Below are positions 1 through 9,749 of a stretch of DNA of 10,391 nucleotides, in pieces. The stretch is from Nitrospirota bacterium (GTDB lineage Bacteria > Nitrospirota > Nitrospiria > Nitrospirales > Nitrospiraceae), in contig SCVQ01000170.1 of the NCBI GenBank assembly GCA_004296865.1, positions 1 to 10,391 of the forward strand, given 5' to 3'. A program made the position numbers and the translations under genes. The notes under the pieces are model-generated. The model had not been told where the DNA came from. It saw only the letters and a program-made list of their open reading frames with translations, and did no database searches. Each line of letters starts with the position of its first letter. Position 1 is the first letter of the stretch.

Positions 1-1357
1 TGCCCAACAGATCCATGCGATATTTGAGCATCCTTCGACTGATCCCTAAGAGAGCGGCTGCGTGAACCTGCACGAAATCCGTCCGCATAAGCGCGTCGAG
101 GATGAGTTGCTTCTCGAACTCCATCACAGCCTTCTCCAGTGTCAATTGGCCAGAGAGGGCTCCGGCTCGGAGCGAAGGAGTGCGGGTGTCCGTTCGAACG
201 GTAGAAGGAAGGTTGTCCGGGGTGATGGTGGCCCCACGGCACCAGATGCTCGCCTGCTCGATCACGTTCTGGAGCTCCCGGACATTGCCCGGCCAGTGGT
301 ACTTCGTCAGGACTTCGAGCGCCTCTTTGGAAAATTCTTGCGGGGGGCGCTGTTCTTCCGCGAGCCGTTTGACCAAAAAGTGCCGGGCCAGGAGCGGAAT
401 GTCTTCGCGTCGGTCGCGCAAGGCGGGGAGGTGGATGGAGACGACGTTGATTCGGTAATACATGTCCTCCCGAAACTCCCCGCGGCGGAGCAGGTCGGCC
501 AGGTTCTTGTTGGTCGCCGCAATGATCCGCACGTCCACTTTGACCGATTGGGTGCCTCCGATCCGGGTGAACTCGCGTTCCTGCAGCACCCGCAGCAGCT
601 TGGCCTGGATGGCTGGGCTGATCTCGCTGATCTCGTCGAGGAAAAGGCTGCCCTCGTGCGCAAGTTCGAAGTGGCCGGCTCGGCGCATCCGCGCATCCGT
701 GAACGATCCTTTTTCGTGCCCGAACAGCTCGCTTTCGATGAGGGTGTCGGGCAGCGCGGCGCAGTTGATCGCAATGAACGGCCGGTCCCGCCGCGAGCTG
801 TTGTAGTGCAAGGCCCGCGCGACCAACTCCTTTCCCGTCCCGCTCTCGCCGGTGATCAGCACGGTCGTCCGGGCATCCGCGAGCTGCTCGATTTTTGCGT
901 AGACCTCCTGCATAGACGGGCTCTTCCCGATGAGGTTGTGAAACGAGTACCGATGGGCTACTTGCGCGCGCAGGTATTGGACCTCCTGTTCCAGGGCGCG
1001 AGCCGCCAGCGTTTTGGCGACGATGAGGCGGAGTTCTTCGACGTCGAACGGCTTCGTGATGTAGTCGGCCGCGCCCAGCTTCATGGCGTCCACCGCACTC
1101 TTGACCGTTTTGGTCGCGGTCAGCATGATCACGGGGACGTCTGGAGCTTCGGTCCGCATCGTCTGAAGCAGGGCCATCCCGTCTTCACCGGGCATGATGA
1201 TGTCGAGGAGCACCAGGTGGGGCGATTCGCGGTGAAGCAGCGCCAGTCCTTCCGCCCCGTTCGAGGCGGCGAACACCTCATAGGCGGGCTCCAGCACCAC
1301 TCTCAGGGACGCGCGAATGCCCGGCTCGTCATCGACCAAGAGGATCCGTTGTTTCAT
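1..1357 (-). CDS. Sigma-54-dependent NtrC-family response regulator (3' end outside window)
   Basis: Predicted DNA-binding activator that couples phosphorylation by a sensor kinase to opening of sigma-54 promoters. About 452 residues are visible. The receiver domain (1-120) has acidic residues D9/D10, phospho-acceptor D52, T80 and K102. The AAA+ domain (about 140-375) has Walker A GESGTGKE (170-177), Walker B LFLDE (238-242) and an arginine-finger region around REDMYYR (296-302). The C-terminal Fis-type helix-turn-helix shows AALLGISRRMLKYR (434-447) and is cut by the window edge only a few residues before the expected stop. The sigma-54 contact loop reads GSFTDA (217-222) instead of the canonical GAFTGA; the central Phe-Thr is kept. 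The ATG at 1357 is preceded by AAGGA about 10 bases upstream. The gene overlaps the kinase gene by 29 bases, so the two are very likely a cognate pair. Its own operon carries a sigma-54 promoter, which suggests autoregulation. Confidence 0.95.
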   Translation of the reverse strand, partial: MKQRILLVDDEPGIRASLRVVLEPAYEVFAASNGAEGLALLHRESPHLVLLDIIMPGEDGMALLQTMRTEAPDVPVIMLTATKTVKSAVDAMKLGAADYITKPFDVEELRLIVAKTLAARALEQEVQYLRAQVAHRYSFHNLIGKSPSMQEVYAKIEQLADARTTVLITGESGTGKELVARALHYNSSRRDRPFIAINCAALPDTLIESELFGHEKGSFTDARMRRAGHFELAHEGSLFLDEISEISPAIQAKLLRVLQEREFTRIGGTQSVKVDVRIIAATNKNLADLLRRGEFREDMYYRINVVSIHLPALRDRREDIPLLARHFLVKRLAEEQRPPQEFSKEALEVLTKYHWPGNVRELQNVIEQASIWCRGATITPDNLPSTVRTDTRTPSLRAGALSGQLTLEKAVMEFEKQLILDALMRTDFVQVHAAALLGISRRMLKYRMDLLG

Positions 1358-3503
1358 GTGCGCGATGTCCTTGTGATGAGCCGCGGGAGACGGGGTCCAC
1401 GGGCAGGGTGACGACGAAGGTGGTGCCGACCCCGACCGTGCTGTCGACCTCGATGGTCCCATGATGCTCCTGGACGATCTCATGGACGATCGTTAACCCC
1501 AGCCCGGTCCCCGCACGTTCCCCGCTCTCGTGTTTCGTGGTGTAAAAGGGGTCGAAAATGTGGTCCACGCTATCGGCTGGGATGCCCCCGCCGGTGTCCG
1601 TGATTTCGATCTGCACCCATGCGTCGCCGGTCGGCTTCGTTAGCCGGTGCGTTTTGACCGTCAGCCGTCCTCCCGCTTCTTCCATCGCATCCATGGCGTT
1701 GAGGAAGAGGTTCAGCAGGACCTGTTTGAGTTGCTGGCGGTCCACGAGGACCTGGGGAAGGTCCGCGGCCAGGTCTTTCTCAATGGCGATTTCCTTGCTG
1801 TCCGCTTTGACCTCGATGAAGTACAGGCACGAGCCGATGATATCGTTGAGGTCTTCCTCCGCGAACCGGGGCTCCATGTACCGAGCATAGTCCAGGATTT
1901 CCTGAATCAGCCGCTCGATCCGCTGCACATCCTCGGCGACGACCGCGCTGAACGTCCCCATGAATTCCTCGTCGTCTTTGCGCTCGGGCGCGAGTTGGAT
2001 GAACGTCTTGATAGAGGTCAGCGGATTCCGGATCTCATGGGCGAAGCCCCCCGCGATGATCTCCAGGGAGCGGAGGCGATCGGTGCGGCGCATCAGCGCC
2101 TGGGAACGTCTGAGGTCTTCATAGAGCATGGCGTTGTCGAGGGCGATGGCGGCATTTTGACCCAGCGTGGACAGGAGACGCAAGTCCTCCTCGGCGTACA
2201 TGCGGCGGTCCTTGCGCGGACCCAGATTGCAGAAGCCGACCAGGCGGTCCTTGTTCACGAACGGGATGCACACGTCGGAATCCATGGCTGCCAAGATGTC
2301 CGCGAGGGATCGGCTCGGATCCTGGGCCGGGGCTTGTTCCAGCTCTTCCCTCACCAGGATCGTCTGGGCCCGCGCCAGGCAGGCCGGCACGCCGTCCCGG
2401 GCGCTCAACCGGACGGCCGGCATGCCGTTCGAGCCCAATCCGCGTGAGGCGGAGAGGAGGTAGGCATCGTGCTCCTTGTCGAGGAGATAGAGGGACGCCG
2501 ACGCGATTCCGATGACGTCGGCCAGCGTGCGGACGATCGTGTTGGTCAACGATTTGAGGTCCAGGTTCGTCACCAGCGCATTGGGAAACGCCGACAGCGT
2601 TTCGTACATGTGTTGCCGGTGCCGAAACAGGGTTCGGTCAACGACGGCTTGCGCTCTGGTCCGCAGCCGATAGGCCGCCGAGATCGCCAAGACGAAAAGC
2701 GCCAGCATGATGGTTGAAAATTGATAGCTGGCCTCTCCGAAATAGGCCTGCTGGATCGCCAGCAGGATGACGAACGACGGGGCCGCGATGAAGAACGTGA
2801 GCAGTAGGTAGGCAAGCCCTTTTTGCATAACCACGGTAAAATCGAATAGTCGATAGCGGACCATCGCGTAGGCCACGATGGCGGTGTACAGGGAAATAAG
2901 AACGGTTCCGTTGGGAGGGATTGGGATGCCGTACCAGAGAGGAAAGTTGGTGAAGCCCCCCAAGTATCCGATCACGGAACCGATCGCAAGGTAGAGATAC
3001 TGATTGCGTCGAATGCCCCTGGCGGTCTGGTAGGAGTGAATGCAAAGGTACGTCGCATAGACGACATAGATCGTGAACCACACTAGGTAGAAGTGAAAAG
3101 CGATTCCGGGTTTGGGCCAGTGCTGGAATCCGGCTTCCGTCCGAAGGTCGGCAACGAAATAGGGGGTGCAGTCGAGGAACAGGAAGACACCACCGAAGAC
3201 ATATCCAGCCTGAAGGAGCCGTCGATGGGTGTCGATGCGGTCCAGAAGGGTAAGCGTATGGGACAGGTAAAAGACAGGGATCATGATGGCGCCCGCCATC
3301 AGTAGCCGAACGAACAGGAGGGCGAGCTCTTTTGATTCCGTGATCTGCCACGCAAAGTAAAAATAGCTCCAGACGGAGAGGCTGAGGCAGTAGAGACCGT
3401 AGGCCAGGTGTTTGGGGTTTCGTGGGTCCCGAGAATAGACGAAGATCCCCAACGTCGTGGCAGCCGCCGCGTTCAGAAGAGCGCTGAAGGCATAAAAGTT
3501 CAT
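1329..3503 (-). CDS. Membrane sensor histidine kinase (9 TM, GAF, HisKA, HATPase_c)
   Basis: Inner-membrane sensor kinase of 724 residues, probably partner of the downstream regulator. The N-terminal third holds about nine hydrophobic segments (near 5-22, 34-52, 61-86, 98-116, 133-154, 169-190, 199-215, 229-251 and 261-278), resembling the 7TM sensor region of the HisKA_7TM/PrsK type plus two more helices. A GAF-like domain follows (about 312-456). The dimerisation domain has phospho-accepting H489 in AHEIRNPLTS. The ATPase domain has N-box N602, the G1 box DTGGG (636-640), the F-box FDPFYTTK (650-657) and the G2 box GTGLGL (665-670), so it looks catalytically complete. Its ATG shares the ATGA overlap with the stop of the upstream fusion gene, and no strong ribosome site of its own is visible, which points to translational coupling. 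The ligand is unknown; the many TM helices suit a hydrophobic signal (inference). PrsK of PEP-CTERM systems is a possible relative. Confidence 0.95.
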   Translation of the reverse strand: MNFYAFSALLNAAAATTLGIFVYSRDPRNPKHLAYGLYCLSLSVWSYFYFAWQITESKELALLFVRLLMAGAIMIPVFYLSHTLTLLDRIDTHRRLLQAGYVFGGVFLFLDCTPYFVADLRTEAGFQHWPKPGIAFHFYLVWFTIYVVYATYLCIHSYQTARGIRRNQYLYLAIGSVIGYLGGFTNFPLWYGIPIPPNGTVLISLYTAIVAYAMVRYRLFDFTVVMQKGLAYLLLTFFIAAPSFVILLAIQQAYFGEASYQFSTIMLALFVLAISAAYRLRTRAQAVVDRTLFRHRQHMYETLSAFPNALVTNLDLKSLTNTIVRTLADVIGIASASLYLLDKEHDAYLLSASRGLGSNGMPAVRLSARDGVPACLARAQTILVREELEQAPAQDPSRSLADILAAMDSDVCIPFVNKDRLVGFCNLGPRKDRRMYAEEDLRLLSTLGQNAAIALDNAMLYEDLRRSQALMRRTDRLRSLEIIAGGFAHEIRNPLTSIKTFIQLAPERKDDEEFMGTFSAVVAEDVQRIERLIQEILDYARYMEPRFAEEDLNDIIGSCLYFIEVKADSKEIAIEKDLAADLPQVLVDRQQLKQVLLNLFLNAMDAMEEAGGRLTVKTHRLTKPTGDAWVQIEITDTGGGIPADSVDHIFDPFYTTKHESGERAGTGLGLTIVHEIVQEHHGTIEVDSTVGVGTTFVVTLPVDPVSRGSSQGHRAHETTDPLGR

Positions 3504-6211
3504 ACGTGGGAGAAGGGTTCCAATTGTCGGTGGTCGCGTGCAGCATGGGAAACCTGGGCCGCGCTGGGTTTGGTCGCAACCGCAATAAACGCCTGGTTTC
3601 CGAAGGTGGAATAGATGCGGGGCTGTTGGGCTCCGCTGCAGGTCAGCAGGGTGGCTAGGTCCTGCCTGTTAAAGAATCGGAAAATGCCGTCGCTCTCGCC
3701 CTGTTTGATCTTGCTCGAGTTGTGCAAGAGTTTTCTCCCTTCCTCTAGTTCTTCCTCCTGCTCGGTCAAGTGCACGAAGTTTCTGTAAATTTGGGACAAG
3801 TCCGCCTGGGGCTTGAGGTTCGTGATCACGAGCCGCCCATTCGGGGACAGGACCCGCATCAACTCGCGAAGGGTGAACAGGGGATCCTGAAGGTAGCCGA
3901 TCACGAGATTGCTGACGACGCAGGTGAACTGGCTGTCGATGAAGGGAAGGGGGAGATTCAGGTCGGAAAGGGCAAGCGCGGCGCTGGCTGTTGTTGGCTT
4001 GGTCATCGGATGCACCGGTGATGCAATCGACTCGGCGGCAAGGTTCGCCAAGTTCCTGCGCGCCTGGGTCAGCGCGTCAAAGACGAAATCGGTGCCCACA
4101 TAGCCGAAAGCGAGAGGAGTGCTCGGATCCGTGTGCCGACGGCTGTAGGCTTGGTTGACCATGAGGAACATGCCGAAATTGCCATTGCCGCAGCCTGCAT
4201 CGAGAATCCGGTCATTGGCTGCCAGTGTGCCCAGCAACCGATAGACATGGTCCAGAAGTTGCCAGAAATCCGAGACATTTGCAATGTAATGAAAGTGTTC
4301 GAGGTAATCCTGCCAGAATTGCACGTTCTCGATCTTCGCCATCTGGTTCTGGGCGCGTGCCCGCTCCCGCTCCAGCCGGCTCTGGAGGCCGATTTCCCGC
4401 TGCGCCGGCTGCCGAACCTCCTGCACGGAGGAGGCGTCAACGAAATACTCCGAACAGCAGGCTACGACCTGACGAAAGACCGCCCGTGCCTTTCTCGGAT
4501 TTTCGTTCAAGCGGTGCAGGGCTTCCGGGATCACATACAAGTGCTTGCGGTCCGAACGCAAGGCGGCATGCACTGTTTTGACCGATTCCAGGCCAACCCA
4601 GGCGTCATGTTCCGCGCAAAATAGAGCGACCGGCGTTGTGACTTGCTCTGCATCTTTGATGGTGGTTCGCAAATCGGCGTAGCCGGCCTTGACGGCGTCT
4701 GCCAACCAGCCATCGGCGTCAATGTTGAACCCCAGCATGTTGATCACGCCGCGCCTGATGCCGTGCACGTGGTCGCCGATGAGGTCTTCTTGATGGACGG
4801 CGAGGAGGGTAGCCTGAACATCCACGACGCCGGTTAGCAGGACCAGCAGCTTCACGCGATGCTCTTGGCTGACGGCCTTCAGCGCGACGCGGCCAGCTAG
4901 GCTCGTGGTGATGACAGCCAAGGGACTGGCGGGCCAGGTCTGCTCCGCAAAGTCGAGCATGGCGGTGAGGTCCTGTCTCATGCTGCTCAGGGTCGAGTGT
5001 TGAATCTCGCCGTCGCTTTCCCCGACGTGGTTCGAATGGTCATAGCGGAGGACGTGGAATCCGTTGGCGGCGAGATAGTAGGCCAGCGCGACATGCTCTT
5101 TTTTTGTCTCTCCGTACCCTGGCGAGATGATAATGACCGGGGTGCCTGGGGGGAGCTCGTCCCGGCGATGGTCGTAGTACAGTGCGATCCGCTGATCCAG
5201 CGGATTCCGGCAATCGAGCGATTCGCTGACCAAAGTTCGGCTCGTGCCGTCCTGCTCGATCTGTTCCGGTGCGGTCAGGAGCTGCGCAACCAGGCCCGCG
5301 ATTTTGAGCCGGATTGCGTCATTGAGATAGGTAAGCCGTAGCCCGACGCGGAATGTTCTCGACAGGCAGGCTTGCGTCCTCTCCTCAGCCGGCTCAGGAT
5401 CCACCATTTTCCAGACGACCTCTGCCGTCAGAGTACTTTCCATGGCGTCTTCTGCGCCGGCGGGGAGCGATGCGTTGGGTATCGATGCCTGAGGGAGGCG
5501 GCCGGCAGGATTGTGAGGCAACGAGAGTCGGAGCACCAAGGGCCCGGCAAGTAAATCAGGCCGCGTTTCCAAGCGGAGACTCATTCCTCCGAGGCTGAGA
5601 TCGACCGTCTGGGCTGTGAGATTCAATGATGGTGAAGATGGATGCTGATGTTCAATCAGAATGGGGATCGACAGTTTGCCACGGGATGTCAGCCGGCGTT
5701 CCGGCGGAGCCGCGTCTTCCGCCTCGGGGGGCGAGGGCGAAGACGAGGGATAGATCGGCGCGAGATCGGTCGCGCTGCCCCCCGGGGCGTTCACTTCGAG
5801 CAGGAGGTCGCCGGTCTCTTGGGGGATCAACAGGCCCATAAAACTGATGGGTAGGGCATGTTCGCGCGCTCCATCAAGGATTGACTCCAGAATCTGCCGT
5901 TCAATGGTTCCGAGAGGCGCATACTTGACCGCGATACCAAGCGGAGGCACCCCGGGCTGATTCGTCGACGAACCCGCGGCTTCACGGAGGCCCAGCACTC
6001 TGCCGTTGATCTCCAGGACGCCCACCTCGCTCACCAGGCCTAGCTGGATCGGCTGGTTGCTGGTCACAGGGACTGTGGCAGGGAAGACCATGTACAGTCC
6101 CTCGAGGCTGGCGTTGAGGGCCTTGCCGTTCCAGGTGTCTCCGTTCAAGGCCAGCTTGGCGTCAGCCTGTAGCTCAATGCGCGGAGCGCTCCGCCGTTCC
6201 AGATCGAGCAT
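3500..6211 (-). CDS. PilZ-PilZ-LuxD-like acyltransferase-SAM methyltransferase fusion
   Basis: A 903-residue cytosolic multidomain protein without signal peptide or TM helix. PilZ 1 (about 5-115) has the c-di-GMP motifs R7xxxR11 and N33xSxxG38. PilZ 2 (about 170-312) has R173xxxR177 and D204xSxxG209. Residues about 323-628 form an alpha/beta hydrolase whose GFHVLRYD (385-392) and HVGESDG (395-401) stretches resemble LuxD, the acyl-ACP thioesterase of bioluminescence operons. Its putative triad S437, D536, H566 has spacing 99 and 30, close to 97 and 30 in Vibrio harveyi LuxD (S114, D211, H241, from memory). After a charged linker (609-626) comes a class I methyltransferase (about 630-885) with SAM motif I LDAGCGNGNFG (670-680). 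The start is supported by a strong GGAAGGGAG ribosome site just upstream. It is first in an operon with a kinase and a sigma-54 regulator. Inference: c-di-GMP-responsive release and methylation of an acyl group. The real substrates are unknown. Confidence 0.9.
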   Translation of the reverse strand: MLDLERRSAPRIELQADAKLALNGDTWNGKALNASLEGLYMVFPATVPVTSNQPIQLGLVSEVGVLEINGRVLGLREAAGSSTNQPGVPPLGIAVKYAPLGTIERQILESILDGAREHALPISFMGLLIPQETGDLLLEVNAPGGSATDLAPIYPSSSPSPPEAEDAAPPERRLTSRGKLSIPILIEHQHPSSPSLNLTAQTVDLSLGGMSLRLETRPDLLAGPLVLRLSLPHNPAGRLPQASIPNASLPAGAEDAMESTLTAEVVWKMVDPEPAEERTQACLSRTFRVGLRLTYLNDAIRLKIAGLVAQLLTAPEQIEQDGTSRTLVSESLDCRNPLDQRIALYYDHRRDELPPGTPVIIISPGYGETKKEHVALAYYLAANGFHVLRYDHSNHVGESDGEIQHSTLSSMRQDLTAMLDFAEQTWPASPLAVITTSLAGRVALKAVSQEHRVKLLVLLTGVVDVQATLLAVHQEDLIGDHVHGIRRGVINMLGFNIDADGWLADAVKAGYADLRTTIKDAEQVTTPVALFCAEHDAWVGLESVKTVHAALRSDRKHLYVIPEALHRLNENPRKARAVFRQVVACCSEYFVDASSVQEVRQPAQREIGLQSRLERERARAQNQMAKIENVQFWQDYLEHFHYIANVSDFWQLLDHVYRLLGTLAANDRILDAGCGNGNFGMFLMVNQAYSRRHTDPSTPLAFGYVGTDFVFDALTQARRNLANLAAESIASPVHPMTKPTTASAALALSDLNLPLPFIDSQFTCVVSNLVIGYLQDPLFTLRELMRVLSPNGRLVITNLKPQADLSQIYRNFVHLTEQEEELEEGRKLLHNSSKIKQGESDGIFRFFNRQDLATLLTCSGAQQPRIYSTFGNQAFIAVATKPSAAQVSHAARDHRQLEPFSHV

Positions 6212-6283
6212 CGTTCTCCCTTCCTTTCTCCGTTTCTCGTTGGAGTGGTTGCGCGAAGGCTGATGCTAATGTGGGTGATAGAA

Positions 6284-6299
6284 AGCAAGGGATATGCCA
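6284..6299 (-). promoter_or_regulatory. Sigma-54 (-24/-12) promoter of the PilZ fusion/kinase/regulator operon
   Basis: Read on the minus strand, 6299-6284 is TGGCATATCCCTTGCT. It fits the consensus TGGCAYRNNNNTTGCW at every defined position, with the invariant GG (6298-6297) and GC (6286-6285) separated by exactly ten bases. Transcription would begin near 6273, leaving a leader of about 60 bases before the ATG at 6211. The operon's last gene encodes a sigma-54 activator, so a self-activating loop is likely (inference). Confidence 0.8.
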
Positions 6300-6327
6300 G
6301 TTGGGGCGATCTGAGCCGCAACCCCTA

Positions 6328-6356: not shown

Positions 6357-8852
<2,496 letters not shown>

Positions 8853-8882
<30 letters not shown>

Positions 8883-9064: not shown

Positions 9065-9382
9065 ATGACGGCTCATGAGGCCATTGAAACGGCGGTGCAG
9101 CGGCTGGTGGCTGCGGCCAATCCGAGGAAAGTTATTTTGTTCGGTTCCTACGCCGAGGGAAAGGCCACCTCGGAATCCGACTTGGACCTGCTCGTGATCG
9201 AACGCGAGGTGGCATCCAAGCGCAAGGAAATGGTCCGCTTGCGGAAAGCCATTGGATCGGTCGGCCTCCCCGTGGATGTTCTCGTGTACTCGGAGGAGGA
9301 GGTGGCCGACTGGGGGCACCTGCCCGGGACGGCCCTGTACTGGGCTCTGAAAGATGGCAAGGTCCTGTATGAAGCGGCCTGA
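9065..9382 (+). CDS. MNT-type minimal nucleotidyltransferase, probable MntA-like antitoxin
   Basis: A 105-residue protein of the minimal nucleotidyltransferase family (pol beta superfamily). The family signature GSYAEGKATSESDLDLLV (27-44) is complete: G27/S28 bind nucleotide, and D39, D41 and the downstream D71 (in PVDVLVY) form the three metal-binding carboxylates. Members paired with HEPN proteins act as type VII antitoxins that AMPylate and so silence the HEPN RNase (known for MntA/HepT of Shewanella). The ATG at 9065 has a modest GAGAG ribosome site (9051-9055). The 3' end overlaps the HEPN gene by 14 bases, which indicates coupled translation. Only weak promoter-like elements are visible upstream. 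Base composition looks somewhat lower in GC than uvrA, compatible with acquisition. Antitoxin activity is inferred from pairing. Confidence 0.88.
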   Translation: MTAHEAIETAVQRLVAAANPRKVILFGSYAEGKATSESDLDLLVIEREVASKRKEMVRLRKAIGSVGLPVDVLVYSEEEVADWGHLPGTALYWALKDGKVLYEAA

Positions 9383-9749
9383 GGAGTTGGCTCGACTGTT
9401 TCTTGCTCTGGCCGACCGCGACATCAGAGCGTTTCGCAAGCTGTCGGATGACCCAGAAATAGACGACGAAATTGTAGGGTTTCACGCCCAGCAAGCCGTC
9501 GAGAAGTGTCTCAAGGCGGTATTGGCGAAGCATCGTATCGAAGTTCGCAAGACTCACGATCTGCAAGTTCTCCTCGACCTGCTGACTCGGAATAATCTGC
9601 CAAGTCCTCCCGCACGTGAAGGAATTGACGCCTTGGGTCCATTCGCAGTCGAACTGCGATATGACTTGATGGCGACCGAACCGCTTGATCGTGCGCAAGC
9701 ACGCAACGTTGTGAACAGTGTCCGTCGCTGGGCTGAGGAGCAGCTCTGA
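9369..9749 (+). CDS. HEPN-domain protein, probable toxin partner of the MNT protein
   Basis: A 126-residue all-helical HEPN protein of the PF05168 type. It is recognised by FHAQQAVEKCLKAVL (38-52) followed by a THDL motif (62-65) and a late ELRYD (95-99). In paired systems HEPN proteins are RNases held in check by the MNT partner. The classical catalytic motif is R-X4-6-H. Here the only fit is R56-x6-H63 in the loop before THDL, and the Tyr that is AMPylated in Shewanella HepT is not at the equivalent spot, so both RNase activity and the silencing mechanism are uncertain. I prefer the ATG at 9369, with AAGG six bases upstream, over the in-frame ATG at 9354, which would add five residues inside the MNT gene without a ribosome site. 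The gene overlaps the MNT gene by 14 bases, as expected for a co-expressed pair. Confidence 0.85.
   Translation: MKRPEELARLFLALADRDIRAFRKLSDDPEIDDEIVGFHAQQAVEKCLKAVLAKHRIEVRKTHDLQVLLDLLTRNNLPSPPAREGIDALGPFAVELRYDLMATEPLDRAQARNVVNSVRRWAEEQL

Follow-up and report, generated by a model that had tools for sequence, protein, structure and literature searches.

We analysed a three-gene operon in a 10,391-nucleotide stretch of Nitrospirota DNA (the window), which is the entire contig SCVQ01000170.1 (C51), one of 613 contigs in a Nitrospirales genome (GCA_004296865.1; G000). The operon runs on the reverse strand and encodes a fusion enzyme (FUS), a seven-transmembrane (7TM) histidine kinase and a sigma-54-dependent response regulator (Table 1). 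The genes overlap by 4 nt (FUS/kinase) and 29 nt (kinase/regulator); this confirms the operon and the gene overlaps noticed in an earlier note made from the letters of the window alone. Gene calls are mechanical open reading frames, and many of the genomes surveyed for comparison are fragmented metagenome assemblies.

Table 1. Features of the operon in the window.
Feature	Position	Strand	Remarks
FUS gene	3500..6211	-	903 aa: PilZ-PilZ-LuxD-like thioesterase-S-adenosylmethionine (SAM) methyltransferase
PilZ domain 1 (aa 5-112)	5876..6199	-	motifs RSAPR, NASLEG
PilZ domain 2 (about aa 171-322)	5246..5701	-	motifs RLTSR, DLSLGG
LuxD-like alpha/beta hydrolase (aa 348-582)	4466..5170	-	triad Ser437, Asp536, His566
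Class I SAM methyltransferase domain (aa 665-821)	3749..4219	-	motif DAGCGNG intact
Histidine kinase gene	1329..3503	-	724 aa: 7TM-GAF-HisKA-HATPase
N-terminal multi-pass sensor unit of kinase (first 7TM unit, aa 1-290)	2634..3503	-	exchanged together with the enzyme in relatives
Sigma-54-dependent response regulator gene (REC-AAA+-Fis HTH)	2..1357	-	ATG at 1357; 3' end truncated by contig end
Purine-rich Shine-Dalgarno region ahead of FUS ATG	6212..6230	-	read from the sequence
Sigma-54 promoter TGGCATATCCCTTGCT upstream of FUS	6284..6299	-	near-consensus

Pfam matched FUS to PilZ in two stretches (E 4e-13), to Acyl_transf_2, which is the LuxD family (3e-31), and to SAM methyltransferases (7e-11). 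The LuxD residues that we take to be catalytic (Ser, Asp and His) align with the FUS triad; LuxD itself serves the lux aldehyde pathway and is not known to be fused to PilZ or a methyltransferase. The FUS hydrolase shares its thioesterase fold and Ser-Asp-His triad with the LuxD myristoyl-acyl carrier protein (ACP) thioesterase of Vibrio (PDB 1THT), and the earlier description of a LuxD-like acyl-transferase holds. FUS falls short of the NCBIfam model for LuxD proper (NF052253, 104.6 bits against a cut-off of 420 bits), and its match to the fatty-acid O-methyltransferase Mtf2 was weak (12.9 bits; cut-off 400). The fold comparison that matched LuxD barely probed the methyltransferase part because hydrolases fill its match list; a scan of a viral fold library returned generic hydrolase and methyltransferase folds. 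A plasmid search with the hydrolase-methyltransferase (HYD-MT) part gave one record, an Escherichia coli K-12 protein annotated as an acyl transferase (26.5% identity across 48% of the query). We found no paper on LuxD together with PilZ in the open-licence PubMed Central (PMC) literature.

The kinase matched HisKA_7TM (1e-12), GAF, HisKA and HATPase_c and has the phosphoacceptor motif HEIRNPL. The regulator matched Response_reg, Sigma54_activat (6e-73) and HTH_8, and its L1 loop is the variant GSFTDA, shared by 29 of the 32 regulators from the mapped loci described below. With the FUS matches, these bear out the domain content first read from the window. As a kinase paired with an NtrC-type regulator, the two proteins resemble PrsK/PrsR of the XrtA/PEP-CTERM system and score against those models (TIGR02916 and TIGR02915), but at 146.5 and 427.8 bits they fall under the cut-offs of 300 and 502.6, and that identity was rejected.

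To place the operon among its relatives, we searched 235 Nitrospirales genomes with a HYD-MT profile, which matched 143 at 1e-25. From the match lists 73 FUS loci were selected by hand and mapped (the second batch held 31 intact and 5 degenerate loci); L130, the same locus as L031, was removed before counting. The mapping hidden Markov models (HMMs) were built on the first loci and then applied to the remaining ones. L and G numbers denote loci and genomes, f1, f3 and f3b family-level groups, and g18 and g32 genera; FUS is called intact where the catalytic Ser and His are kept. Forty-five of the 73 loci retain these residues, and Asp as well. The earlier note would have been refuted by a lack of conserved linkage in relatives, but the linkage is conserved: the next gene after intact FUS is a 7TM kinase in 41 of the 45. 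Three more end at a contig edge, two of them (L032 and L033) with 7TM sequence at the contig end, and the last (L134) has no kinase beside it, though its genome carries a 7TM kinase elsewhere (L203). Of the 28 non-intact loci, 20 have a soluble GAF kinase, 2 have a PilZ-KASIII (ketosynthase) gene plus 7TM kinase and 2 stop at a contig edge; in the remaining 4 no kinase was seen. In three of the four kinase-less cases (G032, G013 and G022) the genome has a 7TM kinase elsewhere, behind a KASIII, a reductase-like enzyme and an HMG-coenzyme A (CoA) reductase, respectively. Every FUS locus with an adjoining 7TM kinase and no ketosynthase (41/41) retains Ser and His; loss of the hydrolase site accompanies loss of the kinase 7TM part. 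Outside Nitrospirales, a HYD-MT enzyme precedes a 7TM kinase in 5 of 5 loci, the enzyme of L206 being split across two frames.

Other genes at the locus vary by lineage. In f1 loci the kinase usually has the regulator and a response-regulator/HD gene after it; intact g18 copies have neither next door, and in f3 the enzyme-kinase pair stands alone. Among 31 HD genes in the mapped loci, contig-cut ones counted, 21 have the HHE...GYP motif, 3 a GYP-like motif and 7 neither. Most g18 genomes (for example G030, with L042 and L061) carry two FUS copies, an intact one with a tandem-7TM kinase and a degenerate one with a soluble kinase, regulator and HD gene. Many degenerate FUS proteins are longer, at about 1400 aa, with a PAS domain in L052, the one scanned. 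In these proteins (L052 8567-12754 and similar) further signalling domains stand at the N-terminus and the sites of both the hydrolase and the methyltransferase have decayed; they are candidate pseudoenzyme sensors. Upstream of the L052 gene (13059-16648) lie PP2C phosphatase, SnoaL-domain and RNase_H_2 genes, and several other f1 loci have genes alike in size and order. In L031 (7941-12866, +), FUS and kinase form a single 1641-aa frame in which the C-terminal FUS residues look frame-shifted, perhaps through an assembly error.

The promoter described earlier is the sole exact match in the window (6299..6284, -) to TGGCAYNNNNNTTGCW, which we take as the sigma-54 consensus; shuffles predict 0.03. 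Across the mapped loci we scored sites on a scale with a maximum of 21 and used a threshold of at least 20, because scores of at least 16 are common (175 of 391 other genes). A site at this threshold lies upstream of FUS in 28 of 43 intact loci and 0 of 26 non-intact loci, and upstream of 1 of the 391 other genes (L054 5536-6591, +), which sits just before a degenerate FUS. The strong promoter is retained in f3 and in the window's nearest relatives, and is missing in g18 and L034-L036. In a search for the regulator orthologue at E 1e-120 (10 genomes, 8 of them f3), 4 of the 8 f3 genomes matched, none above 48% identity, and f3 keeps the promoter despite this. The operon has a consensus -24/-12 site that is conserved in relatives, as expected of a sigma-54-autoregulated operon; autoregulation itself is a prediction.

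FUS is one of several enzymes found in front of related 7TM kinases. The 7TM-kinase profile matches 84 of the 235 Nitrospirales genomes. At 1e-178 or better, four Nitrospirales genomes have PilZ-KASIII, and in each of them the gene lies immediately upstream of a 7TM kinase (the PilZ part of L128 falls beyond the contig end). Twenty 7TM-kinase loci away from FUS were fetched in the order; 13 have another enzyme immediately upstream, 6 have none, and L187 is the second half of a FUS locus. The 13 enzymes (10 scanned with Pfam, 8 of these also with NCBIfam) are TENA/haem-oxygenase-like in four loci (L186, L188-L190), acyl-ACP-reductase/PigE-like (AAR) in eight (L192-L197, L201, L202) and HMG-CoA reductase in one (L191). 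The AAR label is based on sub-cut-off matches to TIGR04058 (81-91 bits against 449.7); the L196, L197 and L201 enzymes are 79, 77 and 66% identical to that of L195. Pfam found a PilZ part in L188, L189, L191 and L202, and a purpose-built HMM found one weakly in most reductase-type proteins; neither detected it in L186 or L190. We found no open-licence PMC paper on PilZ with HMG-CoA reductase and a histidine kinase.

Outside Nitrospirales such kinases are present in 46 of 96 genomes that matched, from a set of 395, and we took 20 loci from 17 of these 46. In 16 of the 20, an acyl- or methyl-type enzyme lies immediately upstream of the 7TM kinase. They include PilZ-methyltransferases (L212 and L214 by Pfam, with a weak methyltransferase part; L217 and the fragment L215 by identities of 72 and 86% with L212), PilZ-KASIII (L220 and L222, by purpose-built HMMs), PilZ-HMG-CoA reductase (L221), a member of the aldehyde dehydrogenase family (L216), the methyltransferase end of a contig-cut protein (L218) and a 4HBT thioesterase (L219). 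The others are a flavoprotein gene with ketosynthase genes after it (L223, L229), a Shikimate_DH-type reductase (L224), ketosynthases (L225, L226) and an acyl-reductase-type protein with a ketosynthase (L227). As a control, 10 hand-picked distal genes near these loci included one acyl-type gene, a ketosynthase of the same cluster (L226), and two without a family.

The first 7TM unit of the kinase changes with the enzyme. In trees it groups by enzyme type and the kinase core does not. Same-genus kinases with different enzymes are 67-91% identical in the core and 31-42% in the first 7TM unit. Near-copies from g18 and g32 were removed from these trees (17 loci in the earlier set, 21 in the later), and the partial L187 was left out of the later ones. 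The core tree forces at least three changes of KAS type, and among the labelled rows each enzyme type keeps to a single sensor clade. Long branches led us to omit five f3b kinases, L186 and L203 from one core tree; the core tree that includes them requires 13 changes against a minimum of 6. The receptor domain thus co-varies with the synthase against the phylogeny of the kinase remainder, as in a specificity cassette, and this co-exchange goes beyond what the earlier note could see. If the kinase detects a small-molecule signal made by its enzyme, the sensing part should change along with the enzyme; as read from these trees, this is the pattern of a matched synthase and receptor, comparable to pherotypes. 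Alternatively, the two could travel together merely by adjacency, through ordinary operon conservation and recombination. The enzyme gene directly adjoins the 7TM coding region, so part of their joint transfer may be passive. In L041/L066 identity jumps where the first 7TM unit gives way to the remainder of the kinase, and in L128/L036 near the end of the unit (the L128 unit is about 30 residues short). The repeated KAS-type changes, the single sensor clade per enzyme type and the joint loss of hydrolase site and 7TM part, though in few independent events, leave us giving mere adjacency very little credence.

From these features we consider it fairly likely that the operon is a lipid-type autoinduction loop, an acyl-derived autoinducer module of synthase, receptor and regulator, which probably belongs to an exchangeable Nitrospirota family. 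The FUS thioesterase would free an acyl chain from a thioester, and the methyltransferase domain would methylate this chain or a derivative; the resulting signal would be small and hydrophobic, and the simplest guess is a fatty acid methyl ester. The first 7TM unit would bind the signal, and phosphotransfer to the regulator would activate the FUS promoter, closing a positive loop. The PilZ domains here probably let cyclic di-GMP (c-di-GMP) tune signal synthesis, on which the response-regulator/HD-GYP-type gene next in relatives would feed back through c-di-GMP. We infer the substrate, product, release, binding, phosphotransfer partner and c-di-GMP effect; product and product release are the weakest links.

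Two other explanations account for most of the same facts. FUS could dock on the 7TM unit as a co-sensor of substrate or c-di-GMP status, with no diffusible product and co-exchange through the protein interface. The overlap of the two genes fits this, co-exchange is as compatible with contact as with a ligand, and the signalling domains in some FUS relatives (PAS in L052, REC in L034 and L065, kinase-like in L038) suggest that FUS is itself a signalling protein. However, several unrelated folds (thioesterase-methyltransferase, ketosynthase, HMG-CoA reductase, acyl-ACP-reductase-like and TENA) would each have to fit one kind of membrane unit, the shared PilZ domain was not detected in HYD-MT proteins from outside the order, and contact alone would not demand the catalytic residues kept in all 41 loci; we regard docking as unlikely. 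The second explanation is intracellular, with a kinase that senses the state of the membrane or acyl-thioesters and an enzyme that adjusts the same pool. The sensor is membrane-embedded, and many of the enzyme types belong to families acting on acyl chains, CoA/ACP thioesters or aldehydes. We think this improbable, since chemically different enzymes take each other's place along with the sensor unit on a core that follows the lineage, a pattern that points to the identity of a signal more than to a common pool of lipids.

Several observations weigh against autoinduction. Loss of Ser and loss of the 7TM part form one independent pair on supported branches and two to four on all branches of a quick tree, too few events for an independent-pair sign test to be informative. 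Fifteen of the 43 intact FUS regions, scanned g18 copies included, have no strong sigma-54 site, and of 16 regions scored before other enzyme types only L065 (19.0) and L186 (18.5) exceed shuffles; two non-intact FUS regions reach the same scores (L051, 19.0; L162, 18.5). No enzyme was seen alongside 6 of the 20 Nitrospirales kinases (L184, L185, L198-L200, L203) or 4 of the 20 outside the order (an unrelated gene in L228, nothing on the strand in L230 and L231, a contig edge in L213). Three plasmid copies in Ca. Manganitrophus (L209-L211) likewise have a 7TM-GAF kinase and sigma-54 regulator with no enzyme upstream; these kinases, in pieces in two of the three, are possible receivers only. 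Just 3 of the 11 intact g18 copies have the motif pair expected of c-di-GMP-binding PilZ domains, none of the 25 intact f3 copies has it (two copies are cut), and the reductase-type enzymes lack it. As for the enzyme-less f3 loci (L184, L185, L198-L200), these are second 7TM kinases beside a hybrid kinase; their sensor unit nests within the HYD-type clade, and they are possible second receptors for the HYD signal.

In the window, both PilZ domains carry RxxxR and [DN]xSxxG, which we take to be the c-di-GMP receptor signature; binding is predicted. Both domains are canonical in all seven full-length intact f1 copies outside g18, and the motifs recur in three enzymes of KASIII type, in the TENA-type enzyme of L188 and in the HMG-CoA reductase of L191. 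HYD-MT proteins outside Nitrospirales gave no PilZ match. Given this distribution, c-di-GMP input is plausible here and not universal, and looks lineage-specific. The input proposed in the earlier note may thus hold for this operon and does not generalize.

That note had also drawn a parallel to PhcB-PhcS-PhcR of Ralstonia. As there (3-hydroxy palmitic and myristic acid methyl esters, 3-OH PAME/MAME; excerpts of PMC11960443), a methyltransferase signal enzyme, sensor kinase and response regulator share one operon, and the division of PhcB and PhcS into types is reported to follow the signal and not the strain phylotype. The same excerpts name no thioesterase or PilZ part for Phc and describe Phc response regulators without a DNA-binding part, with output via the LysR-type PhcA. 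The parallel survives as an analogy of logic, set by operon layout rather than sequence relation. In evolution, the nearest parallel lies in the specificity cassettes of pherotype systems, which include agr and ComQXPA, whose signal is a peptide. In excerpts of PMC4408185, ComQXPA of Bacillus is a synthase-signal-kinase locus whose polymorphism sets communication groups apart. The variation in that case is within a single enzyme family; in the present one, entire families replace each other.

More broadly, Nitrospirota may hold phylum-wide exchangeable small-molecule communication cassettes, an idea on which we are evenly divided. A G-protein-coupled-receptor-like 7TM unit would sit on a common GAF-histidine-kinase chassis with matched, often PilZ-fused synthases (LuxD-like thioesterase-methyltransferase, FabH-like ketosynthase, acyl-ACP-reductase-like, HMG-CoA reductase, TENA/haem-oxygenase-like, methyltransferase and further ketosynthases); the language would change by a swap of synthase and sensor, and c-di-GMP would gate production in some. 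If this is true, the enzyme predicts the ligand class of its 7TM receptor, and synthase-receptor pairs could therefore be read from genomes and tested by a single sensor-unit swap; c-di-GMP would be tied directly to signal synthesis. Nitrospirales, major nitrite oxidizers and comammox bacteria, would carry a second, lipid-type signalling repertoire beside acyl-homoserine lactones (AHL). In excerpts of two papers on quorum sensing in the order (PMC12342949, PMC8553950), the subject is AHL signalling. The LuxI/LuxR systems, likewise proposed to autoinduce, differ in enzyme, receptor and regulator, and the main text of PMC12342949 has 0 mentions of PilZ or LuxD.

Beyond the truncated regulator, contig C506 of the same genome starts with a counterpart, at 71% identity, of the response-regulator/HD gene found after the regulator in the relative L031, and C51 and C506 likely join in the source genome. 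A long palindrome-like stretch ahead of this HD gene (L171, 60-105) is a possible hairpin or terminator. On the other side of the operon, the divergent neighbour (6357-8882, +) is presumably uvrA, named from its own sequence. Downstream of it (9065-9749, +), Pfam identified overlapping MNT-type nucleotidyltransferase and HEPN genes, possibly a toxin-antitoxin-like pair.

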